A stretch of 64,000 nucleotides of DNA from Erythrobacter neustonensis (GTDB lineage: Bacteria > Pseudomonadota > Alphaproteobacteria > Sphingomonadales > Sphingomonadaceae). Each line of letters starts with the position of its first letter. The stretch's first letter is position 1. Under the pieces are notes generated by a model that saw only the letters and a program-made list of their open reading frames with translations, did not search any database and was not told the DNA's origin. Positions 52,417 to 58,760 of this stretch are shown here, piece after piece. A program made the position numbers and the translations under genes. The stretch is from contig NZ_CP016033.1 in NCBI RefSeq assembly GCF_001663175.1, forward strand, positions 2,790,001 to 2,854,000, in the 5' to 3' direction.

Positions 52417-53847
52417 ATGGATAACGCAGCCGAAACCGGGTCGCTGGCCGCGCGGCCCCTGTTCTTTTGCGGCATCGGCGGGTCCGGAATGCTGCCCCTT
52501 GCCCAGATCGCCCACGGCCTCGGCCACCCGGTCGCAGGATCGGATCGCAGCCGCGACCAGGGGCGCACGCCCGAGAAATTCGCCTGGATGGAAGCGAATG
52601 GCTTTGCGCTGTTTCCGCAGGACGGCAGCGGCGTGACCTCGCCCGATCAGGTGCTTATCGCATCGGCCGCGATCGAGGATAGCGTGCCCGAGGTTGCCCG
52701 CGCGCGTGCCTTGGGCTGCGAGAGATTGAGCCGCGCCGAACTGCTCTCGCGGCTGTTCAACGCCGCCGAAACCTCGGTTGCGGTTGGCGGGACATCGGGC
52801 AAATCGACCGTAACCGGAATGATCGGCTGGATCATGGCCGAGGCGGGGCGCGATCCCACGGTGATGAACGGCGCGGTTATGAAGAACTTCGTCTCGCCCG
52901 CTAATCCCTTTGCCAGCGCGCGGATCGGCGGCGCGCCGGGTGCGTTCGTCAGCGAGGTCGACGAAAGCGACGGCTCGATCGCGCTCTATCGCCCCAGCGT
53001 GGGCGTGCTGCTCAATGTCAGCCTCGACCACAAGAGCATCGAGGAACTGCGCGAATTGTTCGGCAATTACGTCGCGGCCTCGGATACCGCGGTGATCAAT
53101 CTCGATAGTGCCGAAGCCGCAGGACTTGCCGCGCGCGCCCGCGCTGCCGTGACTTACGGTTTGCAGCAAACATCGGCGGATATTTCGGCGGCGCCGGATT
53201 CGATCGCGATGACCGCAACCGGAATCGCAGCGCAGGTGATCGACAACCGCACAGGCGAAACCTTCGCGCTCGCGCTGCCGATGCCGGGGATGCATAACCT
53301 GTCGAACGCGCTCGCCGCGATCGCCGCCGCGAGTGCTGCGGGCATTGCGGTGGGCGAGGCGGTGCGCGCGCTGCACGGCTTTGCCGGCCTTGCGCGCCGG
53401 TTCGATGTGGTCGGCACGTCGCCTGCGGGGATCACCGTGATCGACGATTTTGGCCACAACCCGGAAAAATGCGCCGCCACCCTGCGCACGCTGAAAGCAA
53501 CGCCGGGCCGCGTGATCGCGTTCTTCCAGCCGCACGGCTATGGCCCCTTGCGCCAGATGGGTGAGGAACTTGCCGGCACTTTCGCACGCGAACTGGGGCC
53601 GGAGGATATCACGATCCTGTGCAATCCGGTCTATTTCGGCGGCACGGTCGATCGCAGCATCGGCAGCGAGCGGATCAGCGCACTGATCGCGCAGCACGGC
53701 GGCACCGCCGAGCATATCGCCTCGCGCGAAGATTGCGGCAACCGCATCGTCGCCCTCGCCCGGCCGGGCGACCGGATCGCGGTGATGGGCGCGCGCGACG
53801 ACACCTTGAGCGAATTTGCCCGGTCGCTGCTGGCGCGCCTCGCGTGA
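52417..53847 (+). CDS. mpl: Mur ligase, Mpl-like (UDP-MurNAc:tripeptide ligase)
   Basis: 476 aa. FFCGIGGSGMLPLAQIAHGLGH is the N-terminal MurC/Mpl UDP-binding motif, GGTSGKSTVTGM the ATP P-loop, and EVDESDGSI plus LNVSLDHKS the Mur ligase centre. The length and the divergent LD-carboxypeptidase partner favour Mpl, which reattaches recycled L-Ala-D-Glu-mDAP to UDP-MurNAc; a second MurC is the alternative. Its stop overlaps the GTG of the next gene. Confidence 0.85.
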   Translation: MDNAAETGSLAARPLFFCGIGGSGMLPLAQIAHGLGHPVAGSDRSRDQGRTPEKFAWMEANGFALFPQDGSGVTSPDQVLIASAAIEDSVPEVARARALGCERLSRAELLSRLFNAAETSVAVGGTSGKSTVTGMIGWIMAEAGRDPTVMNGAVMKNFVSPANPFASARIGGAPGAFVSEVDESDGSIALYRPSVGVLLNVSLDHKSIEELRELFGNYVAASDTAVINLDSAEAAGLAARARAAVTYGLQQTSADISAAPDSIAMTATGIAAQVIDNRTGETFALALPMPGMHNLSNALAAIAAASAAGIAVGEAVRALHGFAGLARRFDVVGTSPAGITVIDDFGHNPEKCAATLRTLKATPGRVIAFFQPHGYGPLRQMGEELAGTFARELGPEDITILCNPVYFGGTVDRSIGSERISALIAQHGGTAEHIASREDCGNRIVALARPGDRIAVMGARDDTLSEFARSLLARLA

Positions 53848-54122
53848 CGCTTTATGCCCGCGCGCGCCGCCACGCGTGGCGTATGGCTGCCGTGACGGTG
53901 TTGGCGGTGCTGATGGTGGTGGTGGCCGATCGTTTCGTGGGCCATTCGACGCTCGCCTTTGCCGCAGCGATCGTGATGCTGATCTTGGCGAACGCGCCGA
54001 TGTTGAAATTCAACTGCCCGCGCTGCGGCAAGAATGCCTTTTTCCGCGGCCCTTTCGTGGTGTTCTGGCCCAACCGCGTCTGCACACGCTGCGGCCATGA
54101 TCTGGACGGACCGCGCGCCTAG
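53844..54122 (+). CDS. Small membrane protein with C-terminal zinc ribbon
   Basis: 92 aa from a GTG in a GTGA overlap with mpl. Two hydrophobic helices (about residues 13-31 and 37-52) precede CPRCGKNAFF and CTRCGHDL, a four-cysteine zinc ribbon. DUF983-like in layout. The stop overlaps the stop of the convergent hemoglobin gene (CTAG shared). Too small to assign a function. Confidence 0.7.
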   Translation: MTLYARARRHAWRMAAVTVLAVLMVVVADRFVGHSTLAFAAAIVMLILANAPMLKFNCPRCGKNAFFRGPFVVFWPNRVCTRCGHDLDGPRA

Positions 54123-54655
54123 CGTTCGATCACGTCGCGCGACATCGGGGCAAGCTTGGCGAGCAGACGGTTCTGCGCGGCGAAGGGCACGTTCGCCTCG
54201 CGCATCGCAGCCTGAAGGTTTTCGACCAGCGCGTTCATGTCCCCGCGGGTGACACCCATGTCGGGGTGCGCGGTCTTCATGTCGCGCCCGGTGTAATCGC
54301 ACCCGGCATTGAGCAGGTAGCAGAACTGTTCGGACAAGGTGCGCTTCAGCCGGACCATATCGTGCGCGGCGAAGATCGCGGCAATGCGCGGATCGGCCTG
54401 CGACAGATCGACCGTGCGCGCCGCGATCCGCGCAATCCCTTCGCGCCCGCCGAACGATGCGGCAAGCCGCGCGCTTTCATAGGGGTTGGCTCCGGCATTG
54501 GCATTGGACTGCGCATAGGGTTCGGCCGGGATTTCGCCGGTCACAGGATCGCGCTCCTTCACCGTCACGCCGAATTCGGCATCCCAGTCGGTGGCTTCGG
54601 CGGGCGCCTGTTGCATCAGCATCAGGGCAGCGGTGGCAGTGGCGGCGAGCAGCAT
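54119..54655 (-). CDS. Exported group I truncated hemoglobin-like protein
   Basis: 178 aa from the ATG at 54655 (GGAG 8 bases upstream; a TTG at 54661 is possible). A signal peptide (cleavage near AEA, residue 20) and a linker of about 45 residues precede a globin domain: GGREGIARIA, DPRIAAIF, LSEQFCYLL, CDYTGRDMKTAHPDMGV with the proximal His at about residue 130, and a final LAPMSRDVIE. This is the truncated (2/2) group I pattern. An exported truncated hemoglobin is uncommon; roles in NO or oxygen chemistry in the periplasm are possible. It follows the DUF3034 gene by 24 bases. Confidence 0.85.
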   Translation of the reverse strand: MLLAATATAALMLMQQAPAEATDWDAEFGVTVKERDPVTGEIPAEPYAQSNANAGANPYESARLAASFGGREGIARIAARTVDLSQADPRIAAIFAAHDMVRLKRTLSEQFCYLLNAGCDYTGRDMKTAHPDMGVTRGDMNALVENLQAAMREANVPFAAQNRLLAKLAPMSRDVIER

Positions 54656-54679
54656 CGGCAAGGCTCCGGCAATAGGGGA

Positions 54680-55711
54680 TCAAAAGGCGACCTGCGCGGA
54701 GACGAACCCGCCGCGCTGGCCCGAGAAGGTGGCGACAGCGCCAAGGTCGACATAAGCCGCGGTCATCGTGAGATGATCGGTCAGCGCATAGGCGGCGAAC
54801 AGATCGATCCAGTCATCCTCCCCCAGCCCGAGATTGTCGGGCTTGGTGCGGTATTCGGCGCCGACGACCATCCGGCGCGACAATTGGTAGCCGAGCGAAC
54901 CTTCGAATTGCAGCGCATGATCTGCGGTGCCCGATCCGAAGCCGAGCAGGCCAAGTTCGTTCGCCCTGGTGTATCGCAGCGTCGCATTCGCCAGCAGACT
55001 GCGCGCGAGCAGCAGTTTGGTCGCGCTCAGCGTAATATCGGTGCCGCTGTCATCGGCCGCGCCCAGCGCGCGCACCAGTGCGCCGTCGCGGCTGCGCTTG
55101 TGTTCGATACCCAGCGCGATCTGCGGCAGCCACGCTGCGCCATAGACAAGATCGCCCGCGATCCGCAGCTTGGCTCCGTAAGTGTCGAGATTGAACGTGT
55201 AGCCCTGCCCGATGCCGAGCGCCGCGCCGGCATCGCGGGTATCGAAATCGGCGCGCGCGATTGTAACCTCGATCCGGTCGCCGATGCCCAGCGCCGCGCC
55301 GTAGGACCGCCAACCGAAATCGGGCAGTTCGATGGCGGTGACGTGCGCCGAAAGGCCCACGCCGCGGCCCGTCTGCCGTCCGGCAATCGTCGCCCAGCGC
55401 GCCAGTCCGCCGCCCGAAGATCCCTCGACCGTGGTGACGCCGTTGGTGAGCAGCAGCTTGCTGCCACGAACGGGGCGCTGCAGCCCATCCGCCAGGCGCG
55501 GCGCAGCGAGCCTGTTAGCGGCCCGATCAAGCGGTGCGATTGCCGGGGGGGACGCCTTCACGCCGGGTTCGCGCATGGCTGGCACAGCAGGTTCGTCATT
55601 AACCACGACCTGCTCGATCCGGGCATCCAGCACGGGCCGATAGGCGATGAAAGGAGCATTGGCGTCGGCGATCAGAACGGCGCAGGACATACTGGCGCTA
55701 AGCAAAAACAT
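54680..55711 (-). CDS. DUF3034 family outer-membrane barrel-like protein
   Basis: 343 aa with a short signal peptide. LLLTNGVTTVEGSSGGGLARWATI, SYGAALGIGDRIEVTIARADFDT and AALGIGQGYTFNLDTYGAKLRIAGD are DUF3034 landmarks. Alternating beta-strand pattern ending in a C-terminal phenylalanine (VSAQVAF) fits an outer-membrane barrel. Function unknown. It heads the operon with the truncated hemoglobin gene and is divergent from the cupredoxin gene across 86 bases. Confidence 0.85.
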   Translation of the reverse strand: MFLLSASMSCAVLIADANAPFIAYRPVLDARIEQVVVNDEPAVPAMREPGVKASPPAIAPLDRAANRLAAPRLADGLQRPVRGSKLLLTNGVTTVEGSSGGGLARWATIAGRQTGRGVGLSAHVTAIELPDFGWRSYGAALGIGDRIEVTIARADFDTRDAGAALGIGQGYTFNLDTYGAKLRIAGDLVYGAAWLPQIALGIEHKRSRDGALVRALGAADDSGTDITLSATKLLLARSLLANATLRYTRANELGLLGFGSGTADHALQFEGSLGYQLSRRMVVGAEYRTKPDNLGLGEDDWIDLFAAYALTDHLTMTAAYVDLGAVATFSGQRGGFVSAQVAF

Positions 55712-55797
55712 CGTCCGGCGCCTAGGGTTAAACGGTTTCCAAAATTTAAACCTCGCAGGCAGAATTTGTTAACGCCTCTGACTTAGCGGGCTCTGCA

Positions 55798-56436
55798 ATG
55801 ACCCATAGCCTGCGTTCACGATTAACCCTTTTCGCCATTGCGCTTTTGGGCGGTGGCAGCACATTTTTGGCATTCGCCGTGGCCGCCGCTCCACCCGCCA
55901 GCCTGCGTGTGCAGGTGGTCGATGCGAGCGGAATGCCGCTGCGCGATGCAGTGGTCGAACTGCGCCCGGCAAACGCGAGCGGCGGCGCGATCCGGTTCCC
56001 GTGGAAGATGGGAATGGCGCAGAAGAACCGCCAGTTCGTGCCCGGCACGCTGATCGTTGCGAAAGGCAGCACGGTCGCCTTCCCCAATCTCGATAACGTG
56101 CGCCATTCGATCTACAGCTTTTCCAAGCCGGCGCGGTTCGCGATCGACCTTTATGGCCGTGACCAGACCCGCACCCAGACCTTCAATGTTGCGGGCAGCA
56201 TCAAACTGGGCTGCAATATCCACGATGACATGCGCGGCTATATCCGCGTCACCGACACGCCCTTTGCCGCCAAGACCGATCACAACGGCTATGCCACGCT
56301 GACCGGGATGGCAGGCGGCAGCGCCAGCCTGACCGTGTGGCATCCGATGCTGCGCACGCCCACGGGCGAAAAGCGGTCGGCGATCACGATCACGGGCGGC
56401 GCGCAGAACCACAAGCTGGCGGTCGCATTGCGATGA
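55798..56436 (+). CDS. Exported cupredoxin-like protein (annotated elsewhere as methylamine utilization protein)
   Basis: 212 aa with a signal peptide to about residue 31. A type-1 copper site is suggested by His103 (VRHSIYSF), Cys139 (LGCNIHDDM), His142 and Met145. The C-terminal part is a carboxypeptidase-regulatory-like or Big-type beta domain. A role as an electron carrier or copper/redox sensor in the periplasm follows from the fold. The stop overlaps the ATG of the GGDEF-EAL gene (ATGA), which suggests a shared pathway. No methylamine dehydrogenase genes are present, so that label should not be taken as function. Confidence 0.87.
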   Translation: MTHSLRSRLTLFAIALLGGGSTFLAFAVAAAPPASLRVQVVDASGMPLRDAVVELRPANASGGAIRFPWKMGMAQKNRQFVPGTLIVAKGSTVAFPNLDNVRHSIYSFSKPARFAIDLYGRDQTRTQTFNVAGSIKLGCNIHDDMRGYIRVTDTPFAAKTDHNGYATLTGMAGGSASLTVWHPMLRTPTGEKRSAITITGGAQNHKLAVALR

Positions 56437-58760
56437 GCACGGCATTTCCACGCGCGCTGTTGTCGCGGTTGGCCAACCTGCGGATCGGATCGCTGCGGGC
56501 GCGCATCGCGCTGCTGTTTGCCGCGCTGTTTGCCGCGGTGCTGGGCGTGGTGGTGATGCTTGCAGCCGGTGCGCTCGCCAATTTCGGCGAAGACAGCGCG
56601 GCGCGCGACATGGCCGCCAATGCGCGCGTGTTCGACGAGATCCTCGCCGCACGCGCGCGCCAGATGAGCGATGAGGCAGGCGTCCTCGCCCACGATTTCG
56701 GCTTCCGCGAGGCGGTCGCGACGGGCGATGCGCCCACCATTGCGAGCGCGCTCACGAGCCTCAAGGACCGCGCGGGCAGCGACATGGCATTCGTCCTCAC
56801 GCTCGAAGGCGAGGTGCTGACCGCCGATGCTGCGGGGATTCCTGCGCCGCACACGCTCTGGACGAAGCTCGACGCGGGCAAGACCCGCGGGATCATCCGT
56901 TCGGGCCGCGGTCTTGCATTGGCGGCTGCCGCCCCGATCGAAGCGCCCGACCTGATCGGCTGGCTGGTAATCGCCCAGCCCTTCGACCGCGCCGAGCTTG
57001 ACCGGCTGGTCGAACTCGCCCCGATCGCGCTTGGGGCGCAGGTGGTCGAAAATTCGCGGCAGCAGCGCTGGCTGCGCACCGCGCGCGCGGACACCGTGTT
57101 CGAGCGCGAGCTTGGCGGCGAGCGCACGCTGGTCCACGTCTCGGACCTGGCCGTTTTGCAGGAGGGGATCAGCCCGCGGCTGGTGCTGCGACATCCCTTG
57201 GCACAAAGCTTGGCCGCATTTGGCCACCTCAAGCTGCTGCTCGGCGCGCTCGCGGCGGCGGGGATCGCACTGGTGCTGGCGATGGGCTGGCGGATTGCGC
57301 GTTCGGTAACCGAACCGCTCGAACAGCTCGACGAGGCGACCCGCGCAATCAGCGAAGGCCGCGAAATCAGCCTCGATATCGTCACCGACGACGAGGTTGG
57401 CCGGCTGGCCGAAAGCTTCAACCAGATGGTTGCCGCGATCGACGAACGCGAAAGACAGATCATCCATGTCGGCCTGCATGACGGGTTGACCGGTCTGCCC
57501 AACCGCAAGCTGTTCACCGAGCAGCTCGGCAACACGCTCGCACGGCGGCGCGGGGATGAACGCGTGATGGTGGCCTATGTCGATCTCGACGATTTCAAGA
57601 TGGTCAACGATTCGCTGGGCCATCCGGCGGGCGACGCCTTGTTGCGGATCATCGCCGATCACCTGCGCGAAGACCTGCCCGATGCGCTGATCGCCCGGCT
57701 GGGCGGCGATGAATTCGCGATCCTGATCGACAATATCGACCCAAAAACACCCATCGAAACGATCGCCGACCGGTTGCAGAACTGCTTCGACCGGCCAATC
57801 ATGATCAACGGACAGGCGGCGCAATCGGGCGCGAGCATCGGCATCGCGATCGCGCCGGGTGACAGCAATGACGGCGCCACGTTGATGAAGCATGCCGATC
57901 TGGCGCTGTACCGGGCGAAGCACGAAGGCAAGGCGACCTACCATTTCTTCGAGCCTGCGCTTGACGAAGCGGCCCGTCGCCGCCGCCAGATGGAGCTCGA
58001 TCTGCGCGCCGCGATCAAGGACGGCGGCTTCACGCTCAATTTCCAGCCGCTCTACAATCTTGCAGAACGCCGGCTGACCGGGTTCGAGGCGCTGATCCGC
58101 TGGAACCATCCTGTGCGCGGGCGGATCAATCCGGCCGAATTCATCCCGCTGGCCGAGGAAACCGGACTGATCATCCCGATCGGCGAATGGGTGATGCGCG
58201 AGGCCTGCCGGCTTGCCAGCAAGTGGCCCTCCGATGTCACTGTCGCAGTCAATGTCAGTGCCAAGCAATTCGCCGCCGGCGGGATCGCATCGACCGTGAT
58301 GTCGGCGCTTTCGTCGAGCGGATTGCCCGCGCACCGGCTCGAACTGGAAATCACCGAAAGCATCTTCATCGCCGATGTCGAAACCACGCTGACGACCCTG
58401 CATTCGCTGCGCAACATCGGGGTGCGGATTGCGCTCGACGATTTCGGGACGGGTTATTCCTCGTTGAGCTACCTGCGCTCCTTCCCGTTCGACAAAGTCA
58501 AGATCGACCGCAGCTTCATCGAGGATCTGGGCACGAGCACCAGCGGCCACGCGATGATCCGCGCGATCACGATGCTAGCCGAAGCGCTGGGCATGGAAAC
58601 GCTGGCCGAAGGCGTCGAGGATGTCGCGCAGTTCGAAGTGCTCGAACGCGAAGGTTGCCAGAACATCCAGGGCTATCTGTTCTCGCGCCCGGTCGAAGCC
58701 GATGCGGTGTTCGGATTGCTGCGCGAAGGCGCAGGTTATCAGCGGCAGTTGGCAGGCTGA
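56433..58760 (+). CDS. Membrane GGDEF-EAL bifunctional c-di-GMP enzyme with periplasmic sensor and HAMP
   Basis: 775 aa. Transmembrane helix at about 26-48, periplasmic sensor domain at about 50-260 (Cache-like), second helix at about 266-288, HAMP at about 289-340, GGDEF 424-428 and EAL 552-554 with intact NVS (607), DDFGTG (669), AEGVE (725) and QGY (746). It can in principle make and degrade c-di-GMP. Translational coupling to the cupredoxin gene suggests that the periplasmic domain reads the cupredoxin or its redox/copper state. Confidence 0.9.
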   Translation: MSTAFPRALLSRLANLRIGSLRARIALLFAALFAAVLGVVVMLAAGALANFGEDSAARDMAANARVFDEILAARARQMSDEAGVLAHDFGFREAVATGDAPTIASALTSLKDRAGSDMAFVLTLEGEVLTADAAGIPAPHTLWTKLDAGKTRGIIRSGRGLALAAAAPIEAPDLIGWLVIAQPFDRAELDRLVELAPIALGAQVVENSRQQRWLRTARADTVFERELGGERTLVHVSDLAVLQEGISPRLVLRHPLAQSLAAFGHLKLLLGALAAAGIALVLAMGWRIARSVTEPLEQLDEATRAISEGREISLDIVTDDEVGRLAESFNQMVAAIDERERQIIHVGLHDGLTGLPNRKLFTEQLGNTLARRRGDERVMVAYVDLDDFKMVNDSLGHPAGDALLRIIADHLREDLPDALIARLGGDEFAILIDNIDPKTPIETIADRLQNCFDRPIMINGQAAQSGASIGIAIAPGDSNDGATLMKHADLALYRAKHEGKATYHFFEPALDEAARRRRQMELDLRAAIKDGGFTLNFQPLYNLAERRLTGFEALIRWNHPVRGRINPAEFIPLAEETGLIIPIGEWVMREACRLASKWPSDVTVAVNVSAKQFAAGGIASTVMSALSSSGLPAHRLELEITESIFIADVETTLTTLHSLRNIGVRIALDDFGTGYSSLSYLRSFPFDKVKIDRSFIEDLGTSTSGHAMIRAITMLAEALGMETLAEGVEDVAQFEVLEREGCQNIQGYLFSRPVEADAVFGLLREGAGYQRQLAG

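Follow-up and report, generated by a model that had tools for sequence, protein, structure and literature searches.

The window analysed here, a stretch of 64,000 nucleotides, comes from the 3.09 Mb genome of Erythrobacter neustonensis (contig NZ_CP016033.1, positions 2,790,001 to 2,854,000), whose close relatives in public records are Erythrobacter and Porphyrobacter. At positions 54119 to 58760 it carries four genes, for a truncated hemoglobin (hereafter globin), a DUF3034 protein, a cupredoxin and a membrane receptor with GGDEF and EAL domains. The locus is real, conserved across Proteobacteria and, as far as we searched, undescribed. The mechanism that we propose for it is likely, judged from sequence: on balance, we favour reading the four genes as an envelope-spanning sensory relay. 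A search of titles and abstract openings, with the subscription literature mostly outside, found no description of this locus.

Four genes around a divergent intergenic region

The globin gene (54119-54655) and the DUF3034 gene (54680-55711) lie on the minus strand, 24 bases apart. They diverge from the cupredoxin gene (55798-56436) and the receptor gene (56433-58760), both on the plus strand and overlapping by four bases (ATGA). The layout, the spacing, the 86-base gap and the overlap are all as the first-pass annotation gave them, and the coordinates were confirmed. The gap (55712-55797), where the promoters of both directions are presumed, had also rightly been called AT-rich. Its G + C content is 51%, compared with 65% for the window, and 3.2% of 86-base stretches are equally low. 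Facing DUF3034 there is a weak sigma-70-like site (55743-55772, minus strand), with 9 of 12 matches to the consensus only. A CtrA-like TTAA-N7-TTAA site, with at least 7 of 8 matches in 10 of 30 divergent regions of relatives (shuffle mean 1.8; L010 and L038, two of 32 regions, had been omitted beforehand as near-duplicates), was dropped because a spacing of 10 scored 12/30 and the window copy had only 6 of 8 matches.

Relatives were collected from a draw of 99 genomes of the order, a draw of 398 genomes of the phylum and 14 control genomes. DUF3034 was present in 20, 39 and none of these, respectively, giving 55 genomes, as four were common to both draws. We analysed 56 DUF3034 loci from 54 of the 55 genomes (one, L079, being a broken second copy) and a named set of 23 further loci, found through close similarity. 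In the 55th genome (G232), known by coordinates only, cupredoxin, DUF3034 and globin are colinear. A second full four-gene set (L003) lies at 1.41 Mb on the chromosome of the window, with 72-80% identity in local protein alignments. This second set, together with the recurrence in 55 genomes and the absence of DUF3034 from the 14 controls, indicates that the locus is not a product of chance.

The DUF3034 protein (343 residues, PF11231) scored 282.3 bits against a cut-off of 25. It is predicted to be an outer-membrane beta-barrel, with 12 predicted strands and a terminal Phe. The barrel fold would be common to the outer-membrane channels FapF, KdgM/NanC and COG4313, which have 12 strands; identity is 10-11% to FapF, KdgM and NanC, and 8% to the COG4313 channel. 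One could imagine DUF3034 as a FapF-like export channel of a secretion or matrix system, with the receptor coupling export to the biofilm state. We regard this as very improbable, given the 10-11% identity, the placing of KdgM, the COG4313 channel and NanC within 2.2 Z, and, by our reading of the neighbourhoods and with no amyloid-gene search made, the lack of any further family with a constant position around DUF3034. In the accessible parts of two papers the name DUF3034 has other uses: in one legend of a retron paper it apparently means DUF3037 (PMC12548924), and in a Streptomyces review it labels an actinobacterial membrane protein (PMC4255298).

The globin (178 residues) scored 26.6 bits with the Pfam model Bac_globin (cut-off 21), and its profile matched group I truncated hemoglobins (trHbN, PDB 1idr and variants) with E 1e-24 to 2e-25. 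The heme-proximal His, placed at about 130 beforehand, is H130 and is kept in 76 of 78 relatives. Also in common with trHbN are the apolar Leu at E7 (always apolar in the 78 aligned globins) and the Tyr and Met of the EF loop. The window type differs in apparently being exported or lipidated, in having a Cys pair and in lacking a distal TyrB10, an apolar residue standing there instead. The window has V at B10; among the 78, 71 have V, L or I, six have T, M or A, and one was not printed. Wild-type trHbN has GlnE11, whereas E11 is apolar here (L, F, I or V in 78/78); the trHbN chain compared is a variant changed at this position. The Cys pair, Cys112/Cys119, is kept in 78/78 sequences at one position and in 76/78 at the other, and we infer that it forms a disulfide. 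By itself it is undiagnostic, as three lower-scoring relatives (L112-L114) share it. A paper on iron oxidizers with several truncated hemoglobins was considered as a link and set aside, the locus not being described in the accessible part of it (PMC3770913).

The globin looks exported, judging from its leader and those of its relatives. By a crude pattern, 23 of 34 globins from the phylum draw have a lipobox-like motif, against 0/21 from the order draw and 0/22 from the named set; those lacking it have hydrophobic leaders, a lenient call because the starts were chosen to favour such leaders. The window gene starts with ATG, with GGAG 8 bases upstream, and an alternative TTG start is open at 54661. 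The leader of the window globin lacks the usual positive charge, so the case for its export rests on the relatives. The relatives P0121-P0128, of 256-307 residues, have room for two such globin domains per protein. Next to the globin gene on its downstream side, and following a MurC-like ligase, the window encodes a small protein with a CPRC...CTRC zinc-ribbon-like motif (53844-54119).

The cupredoxin (212 residues) is predicted to be a periplasmic, amicyanin-type protein with a C-terminal Ig-like region. The copper ligands H103, C139, H142 and M145 proposed in the first-pass annotation are invariant in 64/64 sequences, and also in a 24-row alignment. No Pfam cupredoxin model matched the window protein at E 0.001. 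A profile of 24 relatives matched, among solved proteins, the type-1 domain of copper nitrite reductase (E 1e-5 and 9.5e-4) and a blue copper domain protein (E 2.8e-3). By its ligand set and solved relatives we class it as a type-1 copper protein, with copper binding predicted. It has the H, C, H, M ligands of copper nitrite reductase, pseudoazurin and amicyanin, and the C-x2-H-x2-M spacing of amicyanin. Unlike known type-1 cupredoxins, it carries the Ig-like region and adjoins signaling receptors. Of 8000 public entries scored, 4987 were cupredoxin hits, and many of its relatives are labeled methylamine utilization protein or plastocyanin there.

The receptor (775 residues), predicted in the inner membrane, is hydrophobic at about residues 21-52 and 265-286, with a dCache_3/CHASE4-like periplasmic domain between these segments, followed by HAMP (39 bits), GGDEF (134.9 bits) and EAL (244.5 bits). 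Both matches of the periplasmic domain were marginal, 28.3 bits for CHASE4 (cut-off 26.2) and 26.6 bits for dCache_3 (cut-off 25.7), and its profile found no solved relative. Both catalytic motifs are intact in the window. Of the aligned receptors with an EAL region, 70 of 71 keep its residues intact (the exception is truncated where its contig stops) and 36 of 71 keep those of GGDEF; two rows lacking EAL were set aside and rows gapped there were uncounted. This suggests that the output common to these receptors is the breakdown (or binding) of cyclic di-GMP (c-di-GMP), and it supports the earlier proposal that the unit sets c-di-GMP. The periplasmic domain contains a conserved D-F/Y-G-F stretch (residues 88-91), and D88, G90, F91, A94, T102, S105, L107, R113 and P172 are invariant in 16 sequences. 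The same 16 domains have no invariant His, Cys or Met (the window copy has five His and three Met in residues 45-265), so metal sensing would fall to a partner. In two genomes the cupredoxin is preceded by an additional GGDEF-EAL receptor (L046:4768-7227 and L047:11454-13871).

Conservation of the linkage

A conserved association, for which the first-pass annotation had proposed a survey of DUF3034 neighbourhoods and the lack of which it would have taken as a refutation, was strongly present across the 55 genomes. The globin gene directly follows DUF3034, on the same strand, at 56/56 loci of the two draws and at 22/23 named loci; the sole named locus lacking it (L037) is cut by a contig end. 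At most 4.5 kb from DUF3034 we found the cupredoxin at 41 of 56 loci, the receptor at 34 and both at 33, and in the named set both at 23/23. The divergent layout, with receptor and cupredoxin facing away from DUF3034 and globin, occurred at 11/56 loci and at 22/23 named ones, L037 having it minus the globin. The colinear order cupredoxin, receptor, DUF3034, globin was found at 21/56, all within the 32 loci from other classes. DUF3034 and globin stood alone at 14/56 loci, and 10/56 had other arrangements.

When neighbouring frames within 7.5 kb were clustered, only these four families had fixed places by our reading. The remaining large clusters shown were, by the same reading, shadow frames, and a mixed kinase-like group was scattered over nine loci. 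A system for copper acquisition and sensing, in which the barrel admits copper or a chelate, the cupredoxin carries the copper, the receptor reports the supply and the globin has a side function, appears unlikely to us against this background. The globin is unexplained by it, yet follows DUF3034 at every locus uncut by a contig end, and there is no fifth family at a fixed place near DUF3034 (our reading of the top clusters, with no dedicated search for copper genes). In addition, type-1 copper sites usually serve as electron carriers.

For the sensory relay, co-retention at the genome level is a second line of evidence. In the phylum draw, a globin above 140 bits was found in 41/398 genomes, namely all 39 with DUF3034 and two others (at most ten candidates were scored per genome; the next score was 97). 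Such a globin had been thought rare, and the subfamily turns out to be not very rare. In the two other genomes, where DUF3034 was not found, the globins lie at L106:6561-7160 and L107:6252-6710. A full-length cupredoxin (>100 bits) was present in at least 38 of the 39 DUF3034 genomes, compared with at least 15 of the 359 genomes without DUF3034, both being lower bounds as seven candidates at most were scored per genome; the Fisher test on this co-occurrence does not correct for kinship. The 16 DUF3034 genomes met in the order draw alone each had a cupredoxin match, full-length in 14 (in G001 as two contig-end halves). In G043 and G067 there was only a short match, which follows a 4HB-HAMP-PAS histidine kinase within the DUF3034 operon (L004; L005 by position only). 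The cupredoxin is absent at 15 of the 56 DUF3034 loci, and in 12 of these cases the genome holds a cupredoxin with a receptor elsewhere (L094, L097, L101, L102, L116-L122, L127).

Receptor distances correlated with the distances of DUF3034 (r 0.93), of the globin (r 0.93) and of the cupredoxin (r 0.92) over 53-54 loci, four loci having been dropped, a result that plain co-inheritance would give as well.

The cupredoxin with other receptors and a second barrel

Outside the DUF3034 sites, our first set contained 28 cupredoxin loci. At 18 of them a receptor matching our profile adjoined the cupredoxin or was one gene off, L099 being added to the 18 by hand (its cupredoxin frame was lost in the overlap filter and its place was taken from the genome scan). 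Besides c-di-GMP enzymes, the receptors included a class III cyclase with dCache_3 and HAMP (L085), a further cyclase recognized by similarity (L082), a Ser/Thr kinase with dCache_3 and HAMP (L108) and, one gene from the cupredoxin, hybrid histidine kinases next to a di-heme CCP_MauG peroxidase (L104 and L105). This peroxidase was recognized by Pfam at L104:5184-6254 and by similarity to the L104 frame, over 95 residues, at L105:6853-7236. The presence of cyclase, histidine kinase and Ser/Thr kinase receptors beside the same cupredoxin supports the earlier suggestion that the unit feeds signal transduction. The dCache_3 domain itself exceeded the cut-off in 137/398 genomes, and some of the strongest sites (e.g., G138, G142, G108) were in genomes with no cupredoxin match. 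The cupredoxin link therefore looks like a trait of a subfamily, no place-by-place tally having been made.

A second barrel family, of ~420 residues, was found near the cupredoxin at 13 of the 28 loci and at 11 of 13 further loci; 12 of the 13 second-barrel loci were used to build its profile. It has no detectable similarity to DUF3034, no member of it was found in the DUF3034 loci, and no globin match was seen in the second-barrel stretches. This distribution points to two exchangeable barrel modules serving the same cupredoxin and receptor, with the globin going with the DUF3034 module. It is the cupredoxin that acts as the hub, rather than the globin, and globin and DUF3034 are a separable pair. 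The first-pass annotation had missed this hub, the separable pair, the replaceable barrel and the duplicated locus. In eight second-barrel loci (L081, L116-L119, L121, L122, L124) a frame of ~634-685 residues is divergent from the cupredoxin. Divergent from DUF3034 and globin, two loci with this pair only, L007 (5753-7048) and L011 (5344-7263), have histidine kinases with the ethylene-receptor-like domain ETR1_N. These are possibly another swapped receptor, two cases being too few for a claim; their genomes also hold a cupredoxin with a GGDEF-EAL receptor elsewhere (L119, L118).

The pairing of cupredoxin and peroxidase at L104 and L105 would also suit a redox or detoxification path, in which electrons pass between globin and cupredoxin at the outer membrane to remove nitric oxide (NO) or peroxide, with the c-di-GMP enzyme as a reporter or a separate element. 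A periplasmic truncated hemoglobin has been proposed to reduce oxygen in cable bacteria, according to the accessible parts of two papers (PMC12093952, PMC11976967). Even so, we hold such a path to be improbable, somewhat more so than copper acquisition. The outputs beside the cupredoxin are four kinds of signaling domain, and the second-barrel stretches showed no globin match. Furthermore, the distal pocket is without the TyrB10 of trHbN, a residue that serves oxygen chemistry there.

A possible envelope-spanning relay

Taken together, the linkage, the co-retention, the swapping of outputs and the swapping of barrels make a sensory relay from the outer membrane to the cytoplasm the best reading, one that we consider rather more probable than its alternatives combined, with the cupredoxin as the periplasmic partner of the receptor. 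DUF3034 would be a 12-stranded outer-membrane channel, and the exported globin would be its companion at the outer membrane, where it would react with NO, another gas or an oxidant. The blue-copper protein would be the mobile periplasmic partner, engaging the periplasmic domain of the receptor or not according to its copper loading or redox state. Once engaged, the GGDEF-EAL receptor would change c-di-GMP, mainly by EAL breakdown. We infer the binding of cupredoxin to receptor, the state that is reported, the ligand of the globin and the direction of the c-di-GMP change; the relay probably reports redox, copper or gas conditions of the outer compartment.

Several observations weigh against this relay. 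Ten of the 28 cupredoxin loci elsewhere show no receptor of this kind (for L086, the contig stops on the side where one would be expected), and five of the ten consist of cupredoxin and second barrel only (L084, L088, L095, L096, L103), which may therefore serve a purpose of their own. At L104 and L105 the histidine kinases have no Pfam dCache, their likeness to the receptor resting on our own profile (78 and 34 bits). Eight of the 41 cupredoxin-bearing DUF3034 loci lack such a receptor (L004, L005, L013, L014, L018, L052, L069, L074); for L013, L014, L018 and L069 a second cupredoxin with a receptor was found elsewhere (L123, L125, L124 and L093). L066 has receptor, DUF3034 and globin and no cupredoxin, and the copy elsewhere in its genome (L103) is the one without a receptor. 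In genome G175 no cupredoxin was found, and both its DUF3034 loci are without one. Finally, cupredoxin distances correlated weakly with those of DUF3034 (0.44) and globin (0.55) over 61 loci. G175 also carries a broken second copy of DUF3034 and globin (L079:7384-8161) beside the intact one.

Known systems have comparable parts. In YfiBNR, outer-membrane, periplasmic and inner-membrane components act on a c-di-GMP enzyme, and the partners belong to other families. The closest arrangement is NspS-MbaA of Vibrio cholerae, where, according to the accessible part of the source, a periplasmic binding protein controls a GGDEF-EAL receptor (PMC8967002). As far as that part goes, the GGDEF-EAL receptor of both systems sits in the inner membrane and has a periplasmic domain, and here the gene for the putative periplasmic partner is adjacent. 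In our locus this partner would be a blue-copper protein instead of an ABC-type solute-binding protein, and a barrel and an exported globin are added. For CHASE4 domains of similar receptors, the accessible text of another study reports copper, iron and heme as ligands, bound directly (PMC13277305), which would fit a metal or redox input. The Pseudomonas GGDEF-EAL metal sensors described there, IsmP/PA2072 and PA14_37690, likewise have a CHASE4-type periplasmic domain before the c-di-GMP enzymes, PA14_37690 additionally having a PAS domain. Their CHASE4 binds the metal itself, whereas here a copper protein is encoded next door; this distinction was drawn without direct sequence comparison.

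More broadly, and only tentatively, the cupredoxin may be a signaling ligand across Proteobacteria. From it, membrane receptors would learn the periplasmic redox or copper state, and their outputs could replace one another: breakdown of c-di-GMP, synthesis of cyclic nucleotides, or a histidine or Ser/Thr kinase. Its own charging or discharging would fall to outer-membrane modules that are exchangeable too, one such module pairing a barrel with a globin gas sensor that would be disulfide-bonded and often anchored by a lipid. For many c-di-GMP receptors the input is not known, and if this is right, one class of receptors would gain a defined partner. It would also account for a copper protein often recorded as 'methylamine utilization protein', give DUF3034 a place, and offer a test case for a metalloprotein, not a diffusible ligand, reading the redox or gas state of the envelope.

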